Source: an uncultured Thermomicrobiaceae bacterium
GTDB lineage: Bacteria > Chloroflexota > Chloroflexia > Thermomicrobiales > Thermomicrobiaceae
Reading direction: 5' to 3'
Assembly: GCA_938082375.1 (NCBI GenBank)
Contig: CALKCJ010000019.1
Coordinates: 1 to 64,000 of the forward strand
DNA: 64,000 nucleotides
Of the stretch, positions 55,039-64,000 are shown piece by piece. Numbering within the stretch: the stretch's first letter is position 1; each line of letters starts with the position of its first letter. Position numbers and translations under genes: made by a program. The notes under the pieces were generated by a model. That model did no database searches. It had not been told where the DNA came from and worked only from the letters and a program-made list of their open reading frames with translations.

Positions 55039-56181
55039 CTAGTGCCCGGAGCTGAGATTCACGCCAGGCACTACCACCTCGAAGACTTCCGGATTCTCCG
55101 GGCCCTCGACGTGGATGACGCCCGAGGCACCCTTGAGCAATCGTCCCAGCGCGTGGTCGACCATCACATAGTCTCCTGGCACCTCGAACGTGAACTCAAC
55201 GATAGTGGCGCCGCCCGGCGGAACGGTCGTCGTCTGCACGTTCTCAGCCCAGACCGAGCCGGCCTCAAGTGCCACCCGGTCGAAAATCTCTCCGATCACG
55301 TGGAAGCTCGATGTCAGGTTCACACCGCCGACGCCGAAGAAGATCCGCACTCGCTCCCCGACCTTCGCCTGTAGCGCCCGCTCGCCAGTGAGCGATCCGA
55401 CCGAGCCGTTGAACACCACATAGTCCGGCTGCTCAGCAAGACACTTCTCCAGCGAGAAACCGTGGCGGCCCGGCTGTCCCCGCTGGCCCTCCAGGTAAAA
55501 GTCGCCTTGCATCACATAGAACTCGCGGTCGACCGGCGGCAGGCCACCAGGCGGCTCGACGACGATCAACCCGTACATGCCGCTGGAGATGTGCATCGGG
55601 ATCGGTGGCACAGCGCAGTGGTAGACGTAGACGCCCGGGTTGAGCGCCTTGAAGCGGATCGTCGCGGACCCACCAGGGTTGACGACGGTGTATTTGGCGC
55701 CGCCGCCTGGGCCGGTTACCGCATGCAGGTCAATGTTGTGTGGTGTCTTGTTGTTCGGGTTGTTCTTAAGTGTCAGCTCGACAGTGTCGCCCTGGCGCAC
55801 GCGGATCATCGGGCCGGGTACAGTGCCGCCATAGGTCCAAAACGTGTACACGACTCCGTCGTCGATCAACGCCTCCACCTCGAGCGTCTCAAGCTCGACC
55901 TCGACGAGCTGCGCGTCACGTCCCCCGACAGGTGGTGCCACCTCGGGCAGAGGCAGCCGCGTGAGGCCAGCGACGCTCTCGGCTGCCGGCGTTGGCTCCG
56001 TAATCGGCATGGAGCCGGTCGATGCGGGCGCGGTCTCCTGCTTCCCGCAGCTGGCCAGAACGGCGGCTCCCAACGGAACAGCAACGCCCGCGAGCCCCAG
56101 CCGCCGCAAGACCTGGCGACGCGTCAGCGGGGCGTTCAGTTCTCGCAGACGGGCCGGTGCGCGGGTCATGTTCTCGATCAT
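55039..56181 (-). CDS. nirK: Copper-containing nitrite reductase
   Basis: A 380-residue two-cupredoxin-domain enzyme that reduces nitrite to nitric oxide. Copper ligands and the catalytic Asp are visible: HNIDLHAVTG (type 1 His, Asp, type 2 His), VYVYHCAVPPIPMHISSGM (type 2 His, type 1 Cys and His), SSFHVIGEIFD (type 2 and catalytic His) and MVDHAL. The leader TRRQVLRRLGLAGVAVPLG with a lipobox ending VLASCG suggests Tat export and a lipid anchor. ATG 56181 has AGGTGAG upstream. It stands alone, separated from the molybdoenzyme locus by a 318-base gap with a hairpin. Confidence 0.92.
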   Translation of the reverse strand: MIENMTRAPARLRELNAPLTRRQVLRRLGLAGVAVPLGAAVLASCGKQETAPASTGSMPITEPTPAAESVAGLTRLPLPEVAPPVGGRDAQLVEVELETLEVEALIDDGVVYTFWTYGGTVPGPMIRVRQGDTVELTLKNNPNNKTPHNIDLHAVTGPGGGAKYTVVNPGGSATIRFKALNPGVYVYHCAVPPIPMHISSGMYGLIVVEPPGGLPPVDREFYVMQGDFYLEGQRGQPGRHGFSLEKCLAEQPDYVVFNGSVGSLTGERALQAKVGERVRIFFGVGGVNLTSSFHVIGEIFDRVALEAGSVWAENVQTTTVPPGGATIVEFTFEVPGDYVMVDHALGRLLKGASGVIHVEGPENPEVFEVVVPGVNLSSGH

Positions 56182-56499
56182 CTGCTCACCTTTCCTTGCC
56201 TGCGGACGCTCCTCCTTGCGTCCATCGCCACAAATTCCGAGCAAAAGGATCGGGCTTCTAGCGGCTCGTCACCACACGCCAGCGGATAGTTCTGACCCAC
56301 CCGACGGGATAGTCGGCTCCTACCCGCGTGGGTGGCTCCAGAGGGGGCTGCCGCTAACGCGAGGTCGGCGGAGGCCGGCAGTTGCCGCCTTACCGACGAC
56401 AGAGCGTGTCAACGTGTCAATGAGCGCGTGTTTCCCGACACGGATGTGGAAGGCCCCGGTCACGACCGGGGCCTGCGAAGGGGAGAGGTGATGAGTTGT
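56182..56499. other. Gap upstream of nirK
   Basis: These 318 bases hold no gene. A tandem repeat CGTGTCAA-CGTGTCAA lies at 56405-56420, and the hairpin at 56451 ends the upstream operon. A small hairpin (GGACGC with GCGTCC, loop AAGGAGGA) lies just ahead of the nirK ribosome site. I see no convincing -10/-35 pair for nirK. Confidence 0.4.
56451..56474 (-). terminator. Hairpin after the DoxX-family gene
   Basis: AGGCCCCGGT (56451-56460) and ACCGGGGCCT (56465-56474) form a 10-bp stem with a 4-base loop. On the minus strand it is followed by TTCC only, so termination may be partial. It lies 26 bases past the DoxX-family stop. Confidence 0.55.
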
Positions 56500-57123
56500 C
56501 TACGCGTGGGCGGGCGCGTGCCAGCGGAACAGGCGACCCGGGCTCCAGGGCGCGCCCAGCGCCGGGAGCAGGTAGCGATCGATACCCCAGTACCCGGCAA
56601 CCTTCCAGGTCAGGACCAGCAGGATGCCCAGCGAGAAGAGCACCGGGTTGGTGCTGGCCGGCACGGCCAGCATGAAGTTCAGGTTCATGATCGCTCCGAA
56701 GAAGGCGGCGATCCCGACAAGCCCGCCGACGATCAGGCCGATGCCGACCAGCAGCTCACCAGCGATCACCAGCCAGGCGAACCAGCCGTACCAGCCCTGA
56801 TCCAGCATGAACTGGATGAAGTCTCGGTACCAGCCGTAGACGATGGGCGGGCGGCCGTTCTCCGGGATGGCGACCGTGCGCTCCCAGAACCCCTTGAGCG
56901 CGCTGCCGCCCTGCGTCCAACCCGGGTCCTCCAGCTTGTGCCAGCCGGCCTCCAGCCACTGGTAGCCGAGGTACAGCCGGACCCCGAGCCAGAGCGGGGC
57001 CGAACGCGTGTGGTTGAACAGCCAGTGGACAGCCTGCGGGTCGCGGATGCCGAGCTGAGCGACATCGGTCGACTCGCCACGGAGAGCCTGGCGGAACGGG
57101 TAGCCTGCGATCAGCGGGATCAC
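56500..57123 (-). CDS. DoxX-family membrane protein
   Basis: A 207-residue protein with four to five hydrophobic helices of the DoxX/DoxD type: WLGVRLYLGYQWLEAGWHKL, then WYGWFAWLVIAGELLVGIGL and FFGAIMNLNFMLAVPAS. DoxD is the small subunit of thiosulfate:quinone oxidoreductase in Acidianus, but most relatives have no known role. About 60 residues precede the first helix. GTG 57123 overlaps the FmdE stop (GTGA) and has GGAG upstream. It is the last gene of the molybdoenzyme operon. A quinone-linked role is inference. Confidence 0.78.
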   Translation of the reverse strand: MIPLIAGYPFRQALRGESTDVAQLGIRDPQAVHWLFNHTRSAPLWLGVRLYLGYQWLEAGWHKLEDPGWTQGGSALKGFWERTVAIPENGRPPIVYGWYRDFIQFMLDQGWYGWFAWLVIAGELLVGIGLIVGGLVGIAAFFGAIMNLNFMLAVPASTNPVLFSLGILLVLTWKVAGYWGIDRYLLPALGAPWSPGRLFRWHAPAHA

Positions 57124-57827
57124 CCTCGACTCCAGCTCTCGCTTGTCTCTGCTTCTACCCTCGGCAAGGAGAGCTGAGAGGGGAATCTCTGGGGAGGCCG
57201 GTTCCCTTCGACGCCTAGGGTAGCGAGCGTCTCGATCGATTGGGCGGGATTGTCGTAGGGGCATGCGTAATATGCTTCTCCGGCGCAGGCGCTACAGAGT
57301 ATCACACCATCACGCACTACCTCGCGTTCGTTGAGGATCTCTTCGCCACAGAGCTGACATTCCACGCGATGTCCGCTCGTACTGATGAATCTCTCCAGAG
57401 AGAACAAGAGCTGGACATCCTGTATCGTCAGGAGTTCGTCGTCGGGCATCCGTTGGTAACCGAGAAGCTGGGCCTGCCATCGGTCGTCGGCTTCGGGAGC
57501 ATAGGCGCGGGCACGCTGCCGCACGTTGCTGCCGGGAGCCACTCGCACCGCCCGTCCTGTCCAGGTATCGACGAAGGTGGCCGCGACTTTGCCGTAATCG
57601 ATAACTCGCAGTGTTCGACGGCCAACCTGGCAACCCGTGGCGGCAGAAATGCCATCGGCGAAGCACCCATCGGTCTCGACGAAGACCAGGAGGCGCTTGT
57701 CCCGACGAGGGACGTCCAACTCCAAGGCTCTACCTGCAGCGAGACCCATGCGCACGCCCAGGACTTGCCTGGGGCAAAGCCGCTCATGGTTGGCTGCTGA
57801 GATGGCGAGGAGGTCATCGAGTCGCAT
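57120..57827 (-). CDS. FmdE family protein with zinc ribbon
   Basis: A 235-residue FmdE-family protein, named after a protein co-purified with methanogen formylmethanofuran dehydrogenase, a molybdenum or tungsten enzyme. The core is LCPRQVLGVRMGLAAG, DGCFADGISAATGCQVG and RTLRVIDYGKVAATFVD. The C-terminus has a zinc-ribbon, CQLCGEE with CSACAG. In bacteria such genes lie near molybdoenzymes and may aid cofactor insertion or metal handling; that is not proven. GGAGGGAC precedes the ATG. Its start lies 14 bases inside the 3' end of the ferredoxin-fusion gene. Confidence 0.82.
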   Translation of the reverse strand: MRLDDLLAISAANHERLCPRQVLGVRMGLAAGRALELDVPRRDKRLLVFVETDGCFADGISAATGCQVGRRTLRVIDYGKVAATFVDTWTGRAVRVAPGSNVRQRARAYAPEADDRWQAQLLGYQRMPDDELLTIQDVQLLFSLERFISTSGHRVECQLCGEEILNEREVVRDGVILCSACAGEAYYACPYDNPAQSIETLATLGVEGNRPPQRFPSQLSLPRVEAETSESWSRG

Positions 57828-59484
57828 GACGTGTCCCTCCCTCTGAACTGCCGGCCATCACCCGGCAGGAAGTGCAGTACCGGGAGAGTGTGCTCTGCAG
57901 GCCAGGCGGTTCGTCCGCCAGCAGGGCCATGATCCGATCGAGCATGCGACCGGATGCGATCGGCGCACCGCATCGGGCACAGCGCGCGACGAGGTCTCGG
58001 GTTACGACCTGTCCCCCTGAGCGCAGGCGCTCCCAGGCGATGGCCCGCTGAACTCGGATCGCGCCTCGGGCCCGCTCTGGGCAGATCGAGAGGCACTGCC
58101 CGCATGCGATGCAGGAGGAGGCCTCGAAGCGGAGCAGCGACTGCTCCGCCGTCGTTTCGAACTGGAGAGCACCGGTGGGGCAGGCATCAGCGCACAGGCC
58201 ACAGACGGTACAGGTCGTCTCGTCGATCTCGACGAGACCCAGCGGGGCGGCAGGGTGACGAAAGACGGAGGCGTCGCCCGCAAGGGGCGTCCACTCGTCT
58301 CGGCTGTAGCGCCGCGCCAGGTCGAGCAGCACAGCGGCAACGGCTCTGGGCTGGACGCTGAACGCTGGTTGTGGTAACCTGTCTTCCAGCTCCGTAAGAC
58401 CGATGCTGCTCCCTCGATCTGCTGGCGGGCGATCGATCGCTGGGCGGTACTGAATCAAGTCAGCTGGCGCGCCGATCGCTTCCAGGAAATCCTGGCAAAA
58501 CTGGACATGCTCTCGGACTACCTCGGTCAGAGTTCCGTGGCAGTCATCGGAGCACGGGAGTACCCCAACAGCGCTGGCCCCGAGTCCGAGCGGAACGAGG
58601 TACCAGGTCGGCGGCGCCATTGCCAGACAGGGTAACCTGAGCGGCATCCAGCCGGGATGCAGTGACTCTGGCGCGACCGAACTGTGAGCACGCATGTGAG
58701 CACACATGAACAGGATGCCGCGCGGCTGCAGAGTGCCAATGCGCGGATCCAGGAGTGCGCGCACCTGAGCGTCGATTTGCGAGGCTGTGTACCCTGGGAA
58801 CAAGACCGCCTCGCGTGGGCAGACGGTCACGCAGCGGCTGCATGACCGACACCGTGCCTTGTCGAGCCTGATGACCCCGTTCTTCGACTCCAGCGCCCCA
58901 TAGGGACAGGCGTGGACACAGAGCGTGCACCCTCGCTCGGCGACACACCGATCTCGCGAGATCGAGGGAACGACCTCGTACGTGAGGAGCGGCAACCGGA
59001 GCAGACTGCGGCGGCTGAACCGCGTAGGCAGGCGAGGCTTCACGTTCTCGACACTGCTCCCGAAGTACGCTCGTGCCTTCGCCACCGCCGCGGCCAGAAG
59101 GATCTGCGCCTTGCCGGTCGCCAGCTCGGGCGAGCTCAGTCGTGCGCACGACCATCCGAGGTCGACGGTTTCCAGGCCCACCGGATCCAAGCCTGCCTGG
59201 CGGAGCTGCGTATCGATCGCGCCAACCTCGTACTGCGATCGGCACAGTCCCAGCACCACACGGCAAGCGCCTGTTTCCGCGAGGATGTCGGGCAGGTCCT
59301 GAGGCCTCGTACAGAGCCGCGGCAGGATGTGAACCACGACATCAGGATCGTGCTCCGCGAACCAACGAAGGAGTTCGGGGAGGTCCAGTTGGCTTCCGGC
59401 ACTCGCCAGGTGGTCGCAGAGCAGGACGGCGACCCGTACCGACCCGTTCACCGATGTGCCGTGGTCGAGCCATTGAGTGCTCAT
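57814..59484 (-). CDS. HdrA_N-ferredoxin-MvhD-ferredoxin-zinc ribbon fusion protein
   Basis: A 556-residue iron-sulfur protein without membrane helices. Residues about 15-150 resemble the start of HdrA (LPRLCTRPQDLPDIL, CRVVLGLCRSQYE, an AGLDPVGLETVDL stretch and WSCARL). Then come a 2[4Fe-4S] segment (Cys at 180-222), an MvhD-like domain (about 255-335, with FMCAHMR, LRLPCLAMAPPTW and GVLPCSDDCH), a second 2[4Fe-4S] segment (425-468) and a terminal Cys4 ribbon (CARC and CTSC, 502-540). HdrA's flavin domain is absent. MvhD passes electrons between hydrogenase and heterodisulfide reductase. Here the protein may link a soluble donor to the molybdoenzyme. The ATG overlaps the TorD stop (ATGA). 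Confidence 0.8.
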   Translation of the reverse strand: MSTQWLDHGTSVNGSVRVAVLLCDHLASAGSQLDLPELLRWFAEHDPDVVVHILPRLCTRPQDLPDILAETGACRVVLGLCRSQYEVGAIDTQLRQAGLDPVGLETVDLGWSCARLSSPELATGKAQILLAAAVAKARAYFGSSVENVKPRLPTRFSRRSLLRLPLLTYEVVPSISRDRCVAERGCTLCVHACPYGALESKNGVIRLDKARCRSCSRCVTVCPREAVLFPGYTASQIDAQVRALLDPRIGTLQPRGILFMCAHMRAHSSVAPESLHPGWMPLRLPCLAMAPPTWYLVPLGLGASAVGVLPCSDDCHGTLTEVVREHVQFCQDFLEAIGAPADLIQYRPAIDRPPADRGSSIGLTELEDRLPQPAFSVQPRAVAAVLLDLARRYSRDEWTPLAGDASVFRHPAAPLGLVEIDETTCTVCGLCADACPTGALQFETTAEQSLLRFEASSCIACGQCLSICPERARGAIRVQRAIAWERLRSGGQVVTRDLVARCARCGAPIASGRMLDRIMALLADEPPGLQSTLSRYCTSCRVMAGSSEGGTRHATR

Positions 59485-60239
59485 CGGTGCACCTCGTCGA
59501 TGGTGTCAAGCAGCAGGGCGAGCAGGTCGAGGTCATGCCGAACGAGTGTGTCACAGGCGACGGCCGCAGCCGTATAGACGCCGGTGGTGTCGTAGAGCAC
59601 GAGCTGGTTGGCGAACAGCGGTAGCCACGAGCCGAGGAACCGCTCGATGAAGCGTCGCTCCCGTCGAAGCACCCGCCGCAGCGCAGTGACAGGGGCGAAC
59701 TCCCATGCTTCTGCTTCCCGCTCGCACAGCACCGCCGTGTATTCGAGTTCGACTGCGAGATGGTCAGGGGGTTCGTGGAGCGACGGTGAGAGCTCGACGC
59801 CCCCTGCGCGGTACTCGCGCTCGAGCAGGAGTGGGATCCAGCCGGTAGCGCTGCGCTCGGGGTCGAGGTAGCAGGATGCGTAGAGTGGGCAACTCGGCCG
59901 GCCACTAGGCCCGACGATGAAGAGCGCGACATAGGCGGTCGCCAGTTCCCCTGCGCTCGGCGGATCCTCTGTGGTCAGCCGGTCGAGTAACCGCCGCCAG
60001 GGCAGGTACCAGTGGAATCCTGCCAGCGTCTCCTGCTCGGCGCGCAGGGCCTGAGCAGCCTCCAGGAGCTGCGCGTGCCGATCCTCCTGCGGGGGCAGGA
60101 AAACGGCTCCCAGGAAGCGATACAACGCTCGACGAAGCCGGGCCAGGTTGGCGAGTTCGGGCGCGTGCTGAGGAGGCGGCCCTGCGGGCGCCTCCTGGCC
60201 TGAGTTGCGCAGCTCACGGATGTGACCAGTCGCCATCAT
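59481..60239 (-). CDS. TorD-family molybdoenzyme chaperone
   Basis: A 252-residue helical protein of the TorD/DmsD/NarJ family, which holds the molybdoenzyme apoprotein until cofactor is loaded and guides it to Tat export. Family traits are the early LANLARLRRALYRFLGAVFL helix, the TAYVALFIVGPSGRPSCPLYAS loop region (compare the E-Y-x-x-L-F pattern) and a DHLAVELEYTAVL motif. ATG 60239 overlaps the stop of the small membrane protein. The partner is presumably the catalytic subunit at 62697 onward. Confidence 0.82.
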   Translation of the reverse strand: MMATGHIRELRNSGQEAPAGPPPQHAPELANLARLRRALYRFLGAVFLPPQEDRHAQLLEAAQALRAEQETLAGFHWYLPWRRLLDRLTTEDPPSAGELATAYVALFIVGPSGRPSCPLYASCYLDPERSATGWIPLLLEREYRAGGVELSPSLHEPPDHLAVELEYTAVLCEREAEAWEFAPVTALRRVLRRERRFIERFLGSWLPLFANQLVLYDTTGVYTAAAVACDTLVRHDLDLLALLLDTIDEVHR

Positions 60240-60451
60240 TGAGCTTGCCTGTCCGGTAGGAGCTCGTAGACGACGGCGGCGAGGAAGACCAGCATGACCC
60301 CCAGGATGAACAGAGCCGGAGCAAAGGGTACTCGGGGGTTGCTGTAGACTGGACTTGATGGGATGCCCCAGGGAGCGGCCAAGAAGAAGTAGCTCACAGC
60401 CTGTAGGGCGAAGCCGACGATGACCATCAGGATCGCGAGCGTCGCGCGCAT
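60236..60451 (-). CDS. Small two-helix membrane protein
   Basis: A 71-residue protein with two hydrophobic helices: MRATLAILMVIVGFALQAVS and, after a polar loop (WGIPSSPVYSNPRVPFAP), ALFILGVMLVFLAAVVYEL. I recognise no family. Its start overlaps the NrfD stop by one base (TGATG), and its stop overlaps the TorD start (ATGA), so it is firmly part of the operon. It may be an accessory or assembly subunit of the membrane complex. Confidence 0.7.
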   Translation of the reverse strand: MRATLAILMVIVGFALQAVSYFFLAAPWGIPSSPVYSNPRVPFAPALFILGVMLVFLAAVVYELLPDRQAQ

Positions 60452-61941
60452 CACTGAGCTCCTTCCTCCGCGGCATGGACTTCCATAATTGGGAAGACCT
60501 TGAAGAACAAGGTGTACAGCAGGGTGCCCAGAGCGAAGAGGCCGATGACGATACTGACCTCGACCCAGGTCGGGGTATACGTTCCGTCCCCGTAGGGTAG
60601 CAGCGTGCCGTGTGTCTGGGACGGCACGACGATGAGCAGCCGCTTGCCGATGGCTGCCACGTTGACCAGGATCCCTGCGGTGGCCGCGGCGGCTACGACG
60701 TTTCGGCTCAGGTGCGGCAGGAGCAGCAGGAAGCAGAGGAGCGCCAGGGCGACGGCCAGCCAGGCAAGCAGAGACCGTGCCCCCGCCGAGAGCACGGTCA
60801 GCAGGTTCAAGCCCTGAAGCGCTACCAGGCTGGCTGGCACCAGCGCCGCGGCGCCGAAGACCAGAGCCCAGCGCGGCCGGGTTGCCGGCACGCGTGCGCG
60901 CAGTCCAGGGGGCAGGTACGGGAGGAGAAGCACGATCACCGCGAGGACGAGCGCGGCCACCGCACCCCAAAAGAGCCAGGCGAACTGGCCGGTTAAGAGG
61001 CTGAGCGAGATCCGAACCTCGTGGTGGTGTCCGGCATAGGTGGTTGTCAGCACCTCGACGACCATGAAGTACAGGTAGGCGAGGATCAGCAACAAGAGTA
61101 GGGTGCCGAGCCAGCGGAAGATCCCCTCGTGCAACTGCTCTCGCTCAGCGAGCACGACCCGCATGACGGCGGCGATCACGAGCAAGAGCCCGATCCCCGA
61201 GACCCCGGCCATCACTACGAAGCCGGGGGCTTGCAGCGTGCTGAACCAGCCCGGGCGGCCTGACTGGATGCCGAAGACGAACCCCAGCGTCGAATGTGCG
61301 GTCACGAGCAAGGGGACGATGGCGATGGCGAGCCAGAAGCTGACTCGCTCGTGGCGGGTTCGCTCAGCCGGGGTGTCGCGGTAGCCGGCTGCCCAGAGGC
61401 GATAGAAGCCGCGCAGCGGGCCCGGTTGCCGGGCGAGGAGCGCGGCGTCCCGCCGGCCGTCGAGGTAGAGGTAGATCAGGCTGGCGAAGAGATAGCCGGA
61501 GATCACTAGAGTGAAGGTTCCAAAGAACGGCGACTGGGGACGGGCATAACGGAACAAGTTGATGACTCCCCGGAGGGGTTGACCGAGATCGAGCAAGATG
61601 GTAAACGCCGCGAGGACCAAGGCGATAACGGTCAGTGCCTCGGCCATTCGTGACAGGGGCCGGAGGTGATCCAAGCGAAAGAGCCGGATCAGTGCTGCCA
61701 TCGTGATCCCGGCGAAGCTCACGCCGACGAAGTAGATCACAAAGCTGACGTAGAGTCCCCAAGTTGCTCCGCCCATCGTGCCGATATTGCGGAGCCCAGT
61801 CATGGCGAGGCCTTCCACGAACTCGCGTGAATAGGCGAAGATGCCCCACCCGACGAGGACGAGGAGCACGGCGAGCAGAAGGTACAACCGGGTCGAGAAG
61901 CGGCCGATACCGTACGGGAGCTGTTCCACGCGCGTAGCCAT
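60451..61941 (-). CDS. NrfD/PsrC-type membrane subunit
   Basis: A 496-residue integral membrane protein with about ten helices, the quinone-interacting anchor of complex iron-sulfur molybdoenzymes. Family markers include WGLYVSFVIYFVGVSFAGIT early, then LDLGQPLRGVINLFRYARPQ, HSTLGFVFGIQSGRPGWFST and a long helical C-terminal half. It is longer than PsrC (about 250) and resembles the longer NrfD-like HybB/DmsC group. ATG 61941 has GCGAGG upstream and lies 2 bases after the ferredoxin subunit gene. Confidence 0.85.
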   Translation of the reverse strand: MATRVEQLPYGIGRFSTRLYLLLAVLLVLVGWGIFAYSREFVEGLAMTGLRNIGTMGGATWGLYVSFVIYFVGVSFAGITMAALIRLFRLDHLRPLSRMAEALTVIALVLAAFTILLDLGQPLRGVINLFRYARPQSPFFGTFTLVISGYLFASLIYLYLDGRRDAALLARQPGPLRGFYRLWAAGYRDTPAERTRHERVSFWLAIAIVPLLVTAHSTLGFVFGIQSGRPGWFSTLQAPGFVVMAGVSGIGLLLVIAAVMRVVLAEREQLHEGIFRWLGTLLLLLILAYLYFMVVEVLTTTYAGHHHEVRISLSLLTGQFAWLFWGAVAALVLAVIVLLLPYLPPGLRARVPATRPRWALVFGAAALVPASLVALQGLNLLTVLSAGARSLLAWLAVALALLCFLLLLPHLSRNVVAAAATAGILVNVAAIGKRLLIVVPSQTHGTLLPYGDGTYTPTWVEVSIVIGLFALGTLLYTLFFKVFPIMEVHAAEEGAQ

Positions 61942-61943
61942 GG

Positions 61944-62681
61944 CTACACCCTCGCTTTCACCTCTTCGATCTGGCGCGACTCGGTGCTCGGCGGGTGCCC
62001 ACCGATGTAGTACACCCGTGGCTCGGTGCCCAGCTCCTCGAGGAGCCTGAACGAGGGCTTGCGGCGCAGGAGCTGCGCGACCGTGCTGTTCGGATCGTCG
62101 AGGTCGCCGAAATGGAGGGCGAAGAGCGGGCAGTTCTCGACGCAGGCTGGCTTGAGTCCTCGCTCGACCCGGTGGACGCAGAAGGTGCACTTCTCGATCA
62201 CGCCCTTGAGGCGTCCGCCGCCGGCCGTTCGCCGGTGTTCCTCACCGTAGGGCGCGTCGAGGTCGGGGTTTCGATAGGGTGGCACGGCCCCGCCGGTCAC
62301 CTGGACAACGTCCTCATCTTGCCAGTCCAGGTAGTAATTCTTAGACGGCTTTTTCCAGTTGAAGTAGTTGACGCCGTAGGGACAGGCGACCTCGCAGTAC
62401 CGGCAGCCGATGCACCGATCCCAGTCGGTGGCGACCAGTCCGTCCACTCGCTTGTAGCGGGCACCGACCGGGCACACCTTGGCGCAGGGGGCGTTGTCGC
62501 AGTGCATACATGGCCGGGGCATGAACCAGACATGGGTATTGGGATACTCCCCCTCTTCGAACCGGAAGACGTACATCCAGAAGTTGGCCATCGGCGTGTT
62601 GTTCTCCACCTTGCACGCCTGCATGCAGGCGCGGCAGCCGGTGCAGCGATCGAGGTCGATGACCATCGCGTAGCGAGCCAT
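61944..62681 (-). CDS. 4Fe-4S dicluster electron-transfer subunit (PsrB/DmsB type)
   Basis: A 245-residue ferredoxin with four Cys motifs for four [4Fe-4S] clusters: CTGCRACMQACKVEN, PCMHCDNAPCAKVCPVGA, CIGCRYCEVACPYGV and the later KCTFCVHRVERGLKPACVENC. It passes electrons between the molybdopterin subunit and the NrfD anchor. GGAGGGAGCGCGGT precedes the ATG. The C-terminal region after the last cluster (LRRKPSFRLLEELGTEPRV) is the normal DmsB-like tail. Confidence 0.92.
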   Translation of the reverse strand: MARYAMVIDLDRCTGCRACMQACKVENNTPMANFWMYVFRFEEGEYPNTHVWFMPRPCMHCDNAPCAKVCPVGARYKRVDGLVATDWDRCIGCRYCEVACPYGVNYFNWKKPSKNYYLDWQDEDVVQVTGGAVPPYRNPDLDAPYGEEHRRTAGGGRLKGVIEKCTFCVHRVERGLKPACVENCPLFALHFGDLDDPNSTVAQLLRRKPSFRLLEELGTEPRVYYIGGHPPSTESRQIEEVKARV

Positions 62682-62696
62682 ACCGCGCTCCCTCCG

Positions 62697-64000
62697 CTAC
62701 TTGTAGACCCGTACCTTCACATGGAAGGACTGGTCGGCGGTATTGGCGACGTAGCCTTCGCCGGTAAAGAAGACGCTGTTGGGTGTGGGGCCCTGCCCAA
62801 CCGTCCAGGGATGCCGGATAGCCTCGCCGTAGTGGTGGGGCATCCCGACGGTGTCAGGCCGGATGCCCTCCCGGTACCGGGCGATCGTCCGCACTCGGCG
62901 CGTCTCACCGGTGACCGCATTGTGCGACTCGACCCAGACCTCGTCGCCGTCCTGAATCCCGCGCTCCTCCGCAGTGCGCGGGTTGATATCGATCCCCGCT
63001 TTGGGAGCCAACTCGGCCAGGAGGGGAATCTGCGAGGAGCGCGATTGCTTGAACTCGATCAGCTTGTAGCTGATCAGGTAGAGGTCGTACTCGGGCGGCG
63101 ACTCCTCCATGGTGGGCTTGCGCCAGGTCGGGAAAGGCGTGTAGTCGCGCCAGTAGGTCTCGGCGACACCCCGCTGGCGCATCTCCTCACGGTAGCGTCG
63201 CAGCGACTCGCCATACAGGCGGTGGCGGACGCCACCGAACGGCGGGTCGGTGACGTAGCCGTAGAGCTTGGTCGCGGGGATCGGCTGGGCGACCGTGACC
63301 CCGTTCTTCTCGAAATACGCGACGCCGTCCGCGATGCCTGCTGAGCGGGCCCAGCGGTCGAAGATCTCCCGTACCGTCGGCTTGCGATCCAGCGGGAGCT
63401 TGTGCTCATCCTTCAGCTTCAACGCCTCATTCAGGTGGTGGAGGTAGCCGCCCTCGCCGTACAGGATCCCGGCTTTCTCGCACAGGTCGAGGTAGATCTC
63501 GATGTCTCCCCGGCTCTGGAAGAGCGGCGGCATCACCGGCACGCGCAGTGCGGTCGCCTCGAGATACTGGTCGGTGGCGGACACCGGCCCTTCGTACTTC
63601 TCGAGAGTGGCTGCTGGGAGCACGACGTCGGCGAACAGGTCAGCTGTCTTCGAAAGCCAGGGGTCGATGACGACGACGAACTTGAACTTCTTATAGCCCT
63701 CGATCAGGTCAGGCTCAGAGCCGAACGCCACGAGCGGGTTGCACATGTGGACGATGATGACCTCGGGGACGTAGTCGACCCCGTACTTCTCAGGGTTCTC
63801 CATCACCTTGGCGACGATTGCAGAGCTATTGCTGTTGATCGGGAAGAAGACAGAATCCTTGAGATAGACATTGTATGGCGGATCCTTGATCTGGACTTTA
63901 TCCAGCTTCTCGAAGTTTTCGTGGATCTTCCAGGGGCCGAGGTCGATTCGCTGGCCGCCGGCGGCACCGATCGCACCAAGGAGCATCGTAATCAGCAGCA
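62697..64000 (-). CDS. Molybdopterin oxidoreductase catalytic subunit (C-terminal part)
   Basis: The last 433 or so codons of a DMSO-reductase-family catalytic subunit; the frame runs off the right edge, so the Tat signal, the iron-sulfur site and the molybdenum ligand are not seen. Visible are the CNPLVAFGSEPDLIEGYKKF domain, DLFADVVLPAATLEKYEGPV, the fourth-domain INPRTAEERGIQDGDEVWVE and RPDTVGMPHHYGEA. The overall pattern is closest to polysulfide, thiosulfate or tetrathionate-type reductases (PsrA/PhsA/TtrA). The substrate cannot be decided from this part. It is upstream of its ferredoxin and NrfD partners. Confidence 0.85.
   Translation of the reverse strand, partial: LLITMLLGAIGAAGGQRIDLGPWKIHENFEKLDKVQIKDPPYNVYLKDSVFFPINSNSSAIVAKVMENPEKYGVDYVPEVIIVHMCNPLVAFGSEPDLIEGYKKFKFVVVIDPWLSKTADLFADVVLPAATLEKYEGPVSATDQYLEATALRVPVMPPLFQSRGDIEIYLDLCEKAGILYGEGGYLHHLNEALKLKDEHKLPLDRKPTVREIFDRWARSAGIADGVAYFEKNGVTVAQPIPATKLYGYVTDPPFGGVRHRLYGESLRRYREEMRQRGVAETYWRDYTPFPTWRKPTMEESPPEYDLYLISYKLIEFKQSRSSQIPLLAELAPKAGIDINPRTAEERGIQDGDEVWVESHNAVTGETRRVRTIARYREGIRPDTVGMPHHYGEAIRHPWTVGQGPTPNSVFFTGEGYVANTADQSFHVKVRVYK

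Follow-up and report, generated by a model that had tools for sequence, protein, structure and literature searches.

The window, a stretch of 64,000 nucleotides that is part of a 116-kb contig from a Thermomicrobiaceae genome, contains most of a minus-strand operon of eight translationally coupled genes running from 65261 to 56500 (Table 1). In the 5′ to 3′ direction they encode a molybdopterin subunit, whose start at contig position 65261 lies outside the window, a ferredoxin, an NrfD protein, a small membrane protein, TorD, a fusion protein with HdrA- and MvhD-like parts, FmdE and DoxX. The junctions are, in this order, 15 nt, 2 nt, a 1-nt overlap (TGATG), ATGA, ATGA, a 14-nt overlap and GTGA; stop/start overlaps in such a chain are not chance. 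A sequence-only reading of this DNA had described eight tightly packed genes on one strand, and open reading frames, domains (upheld by Pfam and NCBIfam) and junction overlaps bear this out. A sister species (G117, "Thermomicrobiaceae bacterium isolate Tumba.bins.21") has the identical gene order with 74–98% identity, a nitrite reductase gene included.

Table 1. Features of the operon and its downstream flank (window coordinates; strand −, minus)
Feature	Coordinates	Strand	Remarks
Molybdopterin (bis-PGD type) catalytic subunit, C-terminal half	62697..64000	−	whole gene to 65261, 854 aa, stop at 62697
Ferredoxin-type electron-transfer subunit	61944..62681	−	245 aa, 16 cysteines, without signal peptide
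NrfD-family membrane anchor	60451..61941	−	496 aa, PF03916 87.6 bits, hydropathy
Small two-span membrane protein	60236..60451	−	71 aa
TorD/NarJ-family chaperone	59481..60239	−	PF02613 86.7 bits
Fusion protein (HdrA N-term + ferredoxin + FlpD/MvhD + ferredoxin + CxxC...CxxC)	57814..59484	−	
FmdE-family protein with C-terminal DksA/TraR-type zinc finger	57120..57827	−	PF02663 97.9 bits, PF01258 33.6 bits
DoxX-family membrane protein	56500..57123	−	PF07681 32.8 bits, cutoff 23.6
Perfect 22-nt inverted repeat	56452..56473		between DoxX and nitrite reductase gene
Copper nitrite reductase	55039-56181	−	TIGR02376, 354 bits vs cutoff 296

The catalytic gene is directly preceded by genes for a histidine kinase of the GAF type and a regulator of the NarL type. 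At the other end the most likely start of DoxX is the GTG at 57123 and not the ATG at 57264: the alignment with the sister species sets in only near the former. The copper nitrite reductase gene follows about 320 nt past DoxX, in the sister species in the same order and with 94% identity. The inverted repeat between the two genes is possibly the transcript end; it has no T-run, the terminator scan made no call there, and a scan of the DoxX/NirK surroundings found neither a sigma-70-type promoter nor a T-run terminator.

The first five genes had been read as the known plan of complex iron-sulfur molybdoenzymes (CISM), and this assignment holds: a MopB catalytic subunit, a four-cluster subunit and a membrane anchor (NrfD) are encoded within one operon together with TorD. 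The catalytic subunit begins with MRISRRTFLKG, which contains a TAT motif (SRRTFLKG), and has a cysteine where PhsA-type enzymes have the molybdenum-ligating cysteine. The 16 cysteines of the ferredoxin subunit leave room for four [4Fe-4S] clusters. TorD is the sole PF02613 protein of the genome.

In a maximum-likelihood tree of the catalytic subunit, the enzyme falls into a clade of its own with 100/100 support, which comprises sequences from several Chloroflexota families and from one haloarchaeal plasmid (Natronorubrum bangense). The clade is separate from all PhsA, ArxA, SoeA, FDH, Dms and Nas sequences tested; these references were taken from annotated plasmids (an Azoarcus Arx-type operon, an Azospirillum Soe-type locus beside xsc, and E. 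coli PhsA, Dms, Nas and FDH), the Arx and Soe labels being assigned from gene order. What marks the clade is its FS0 motif. The standard pattern at the N terminus is C-x2-C-x3-C-x~27-C, from which the clade departs: in 13 of 13 members the second cysteine is replaced by glycine, giving C-W-I-G-K-Q-(D/G)-C, i.e., C-x2-G-x3-C, with KQDC in most members and KQGC in the window, where LCPKG follows about 27 residues on. Nine genes of the sister clade keep C-x2-C-x3-C and have all four cysteines. The sequences thus show a catalytic lineage (hereafter the CWIGKQ clade) in which one FS0 cysteine was lost. Another molybdoenzyme departing from four cysteines is the ArxA-like enzyme of Azoarcus (L095:7989-10625), with C-x2-C-x3-D at FS0.

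The 71-aa membrane protein is a conserved part of all the complete operons of this clade in Chloroflexota. The operon of one genus (g3) has a gene for a multihaem c-type cytochrome with at least three CxxCH-like motifs between the catalytic and the ferredoxin genes (L015:7224-8864), of which fragments occur in L036 and L025 too. On the Natronorubrum plasmid an arsenic island (L017:4811-22179) consists of genes for an LMW phosphatase-type protein, an MFS transporter and ArsR, the molybdoenzyme operon, Mrp/NBP35, arsD and arsA.

The substrate would be a small oxyanion or a sulfur or arsenic compound. That the enzyme is a sulfur-compound oxidoreductase acting on thiosulfate, polysulfide or sulfite is a tentative proposal, for which speak PhsA as the best NCBIfam match of the catalytic subunit (259 bits) and good scores for DsrO/DsrP-like subunits. 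The PhsA score stays far below the cutoff of 694 bits, however, and in the tree neither PhsA nor SoeA falls with the clade; moreover, PhsA is also the top match of ArxA and SoeA and is therefore non-discriminating. That the enzyme reduces arsenate or oxidizes arsenite, as an arsenic oxidoreductase of a kind other than Arr, Arx and Aio, appears rather unlikely to us. It would explain why the Natronorubrum operon is located between an ArsR gene and arsD-arsA, and it would agree with a fusion gene in the genome G307 that adjoins an ACR3-like transporter gene and an ArsR-like match, with ArrB as the best NCBIfam match of the ferredoxin subunit, and with a KQSR(T/S) motif common to the clade and Azoarcus ArxA. 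Yet ArrB reaches 208 bits against a cutoff of 450 and ArrA 133 against 1600, the clade does not group with ArxA in the tree, the ACR3 match in G307 is below cutoff on a contig from which the catalytic gene is absent, and the window operon, like most of the other loci, has no arsenic genes in its vicinity. The NCBIfam cutoffs for FDH are likewise not reached by the catalytic subunit.

The fusion protein is composed of pieces known from heterodisulfide reductase. A profile of nine fusion sequences matches the N-terminal domain of HdrA (9sfi_A 4-133) and the HdrA ferredoxin domain (5odc_A 554-649). Its two 2[4Fe-4S] ferredoxin domains have all 16 ligand cysteines, and the C-terminal CxxC...CxxC pair is invariant. 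The MvhD/FlpD region scores 20.6 and 22.8 bits with PF02662, around the cutoff of 22.3; of its cysteines C261 and C315 are invariant, C286 and C311 are not. The FAD domain is missing between about residues 140 and 175, scores with the HdrA equivalogs are 44–81 bits with cutoffs of 1100–1400, and neither a signal peptide nor a transmembrane span was found. An AlphaFold model computed from two sequences had a pLDDT of 32, and the fold assigned here is therefore sequence-based. Selenocysteine was considered and rejected, the single TGA in two relatives being the natural stop.

The ferredoxin parts do not account for all of the homology to the fusion relatives in Proteobacteria and haloarchaea (hhalign E 8e-40, 7e-35 and 2e-38). 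Where the FAD domain would sit, these relatives have a Rossmann-like stretch whose glycine motif is degenerate; the Chloroflexota form has no such stretch. This suggests descent from an HdrA ancestor that may have lost first flavin binding and then the domain.

Among 400 Chloroflexota genomes, sampled as fragmented assemblies, 11 contain the fusion; G107, G108 and G117 were added from a search of the class. A scan of genome contigs brought up the sister species alone, and the relatives in other phyla came from plasmids. All 11 Chloroflexota copies on assessable contigs share an operon with genes for MopB, ferredoxin and NrfD, and the fusion is present in nine of the ten assessable operons of the CWIGKQ clade, the exception being an intact operon in G307 that is without both TorD and the fusion. 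The Chloroflexota molybdoenzymes linked to the fusion belong to at least three lineages (the CWIGKQ clade, G395/G453 and G281), to which the relatives in Proteobacteria and Haladaptatus add formate dehydrogenase. Being bound to at least four separate lineages of the MopB tree, the fusion does not follow one substrate. Four Chloroflexota genomes (G184, G265, G351 and G438) have a molybdoenzyme without the fusion, and the Halomicrobium operon MopB-ferredoxin-NrfD-TorD has none in the stretch seen.

Eight genera of Proteobacteria and one haloarchaeon have relatives of the fusion gene beside TorD in loci for formate dehydrogenase; in the Proteobacteria TorD is always there, FdhD, MobAB and MoeA in some. 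A gene for the Fe-S carrier ATPase Mrp/NBP35 comes next after the fusion gene in four genera of Proteobacteria and, as an independent case, in Natronorubrum. The genomes G395 and G453 are devoid of TorD genes; in both, NrfD is immediately followed by the fusion. The fusion thus tracks exported molybdoenzymes as a class, neither one substrate nor strictly TorD. This association is partly on record already, without a function: "hypothetical ferredoxins", counted jointly with putative lipoproteins, were reported for 43% of TorD-fdh operons, and a "fer4" gene was recorded beside DUF3305/DUF3306 in such operons (Bay et al. 2015, PMC4464133). A search of the accessible literature for an experimental study of any member of the fusion family found none.

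The last two genes of the operon are another matter. The window genus and G408 are alone in having an intact FmdE gene adjoining the fusion; in G307 the distance is 2 kb. FmdE occurs in 72 of the 400 Chloroflexota genomes, far above the number with a CWIGKQ enzyme, and in few of the relatives having this enzyme. Within the short flanks seen, its neighbors in Chloroflexota are genes for MoaA, MobA, a MOT1-type molybdate transporter, FDH and three further MopB proteins. In G124 an FmdE gene closes a nitrate reductase operon (narG, PPIase-like, narH, narJ-like, narI, FmdE; L089:202-7216), and G287 encodes a MobB-FmdE fusion protein of 373 aa (L090:6983-8101), direct evidence tying FmdE to molybdenum cofactor handling. 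From these neighbors and the MobB fusion FmdE is best read as an optional helper related to the molybdenum cofactor. There are no fwd/fmd genes in the window operon; in a published survey 13 of 208 FmdE genes adjoined formylmethanofuran dehydrogenase (PMC2954224). A second FmdE gene of G124, directly after its fusion gene (L012:7960-8520), has TAG at a conserved cysteine and then TGA and TAG; selenocysteine was again rejected, since the stop at the cysteine is TAG and further stops follow, and the gene is considered decayed. DoxX is limited in these operons to the window genus and is a lineage-specific add-on. Of the combined system suggested by the sequence-only reading, the fusion has therefore stood up to the comparison of neighborhoods, FmdE mostly has not, and DoxX has dropped out.

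From these data we propose that the operon encodes an exported, membrane-anchored Mo/Fe-S oxidoreductase, which would exchange electrons with the quinone pool via NrfD, together with genes for building the enzyme. The unfolded catalytic subunit would be bound by TorD; the fusion would remain in the cytoplasm and, with or after TorD, load or reduce the Fe-S/Mo centers before export via TAT. The mature enzyme would then work on the outer face, with electrons probably moving between molybdenum, the FS0 site, the four-cluster subunit and a quinone at NrfD. The part of the fusion would be comparable to that proposed for NapF, a cytoplasmic four-cluster protein suggested to act in the Fe-S maturation of NapA prior to its export (PMC10609526). 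That the HdrA/MvhD-like fusion is a cytoplasmic, redox-active Fe-S helper in enzyme maturation we hold with slightly better than even confidence; the reading is favored because the companions of the fusion are maturation genes (TorD, FdhD, MobA, MobB, MoeA, Mrp/NBP35) and because of the NapF precedent. The "methanogen-like" genes thus look like shared helpers for building molybdoenzymes rather than a second electron pathway.

Such a second, soluble electron route had been offered earlier as a possible reading of the locus. The fusion would dock on the inner face of NrfD and shuttle electrons between the quinone site and a soluble pool of the ferredoxin type, coupling the exported enzyme to cytoplasmic metabolism. 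The families of HdrA and MvhD, to which the fusion is homologous, are electron carriers, and two complete ferredoxin domains suit such a task. In G395 and G453 the position after NrfD in genomes without TorD speaks for the route and against a helper. The G307 operon, from which TorD and the fusion are missing together, also counts against a helper. In G453 (L087:3927-9351) the fusion gene is followed by genes for a small membrane protein and two HdrD/DsrK/HdrC-like proteins, an arrangement that fits an electron route better than maturation. The fusion is, however, without a flavin domain, the MvhD cysteines are only partly conserved, and the window operon has no obvious gene for a soluble donor. 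The same family is also found beside formate dehydrogenases that have an FDH gamma membrane subunit rather than NrfD. The catalytic side is outside the cytoplasm: since the catalytic subunit is exported and the fusion has neither signal nor span, direct electron exchange between the two after export is unlikely. We therefore regard the soluble route as less likely than maturation, and as improbable in itself.

Taken together, the locus may represent a molybdoenzyme lineage of Chloroflexota and haloarchaea, exported and acting on an arsenic or sulfur oxyanion, with a remodeled FS0 site that has three cysteines and perhaps holds a [3Fe-4S] cluster or uses a ligand other than cysteine, and matured by a dedicated HdrA-derived, flavin-less Fe-S protein that serves as a general redox maturation factor for TAT-exported molybdoenzymes in Bacteria and Archaea. 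In this full form we put the proposal forward tentatively, as a doubtful one. If the fusion does act in maturation, the protein encoded beside numerous formate dehydrogenases and further molybdoenzymes, with no better annotation than "4Fe-4S binding protein" or "hydrogenase iron-sulfur subunit", would be a missing maturation factor; part of the reason why such enzymes are expressed poorly in heterologous hosts could lie here. The clade with glycine for cysteine at FS0 offers a ready test of the variability of the proximal cluster. Chemistry of the methanogen type should not be read into the names HdrA, MvhD and FmdE.

Among known systems the NrfD-anchored CISM enzymes (PsrABC/PhsABC, ArrABC, ArxABCD and SoeABC) are the closest in plan, having a TAT-exported MopB subunit, a four-cluster ferredoxin subunit, an anchor and a TorD-type chaperone. 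The window enzyme differs by its separate clade and by the glycine for the second FS0 cysteine, and its operon adds the conserved 71-aa membrane protein and the HdrA/MvhD-like helper. Over a stretch that starts with its first ferredoxin and ends with the C-terminal CxxC pairs, the fusion itself is homologous to the "4Fe-4S binding protein" of proteobacterial FDH3 loci (TorD-linked, with DUF3305/DUF3306), which likewise adjoins the TorD of an exported molybdoenzyme; the enzyme type is another one, and the Rossmann-like stretch kept in the proteobacterial and haloarchaeal forms is missing from the Chloroflexota form. With NapF the fusion has in common that it is a cytoplasmic multi-cluster Fe-S protein encoded in the operon of an exported molybdoenzyme, but the domain plan is different and the score with TIGR00402 is 43 bits against a cutoff of 102, so that the likeness is an analogy only. 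The FmdE protein of the window has the core and the C-terminal zinc finger seen in 2gvi, a structure of its family (PF02663), yet it is found beside TorD and the fusion, and its relatives beside molybdenum-cofactor genes, not beside formylmethanofuran dehydrogenase. QmoB is of the HdrA-MvhD fusion type. The window fusion shares with HdrA the N-terminal and the ferredoxin domain and has, at a borderline score, an MvhD-like domain as in HdrA-MvhD fusions; it differs from HdrA and QmoB in being without the FAD/thioredoxin-reductase domain, in having a second ferredoxin, and in its link to molybdoenzymes instead of HdrBC or Apr.
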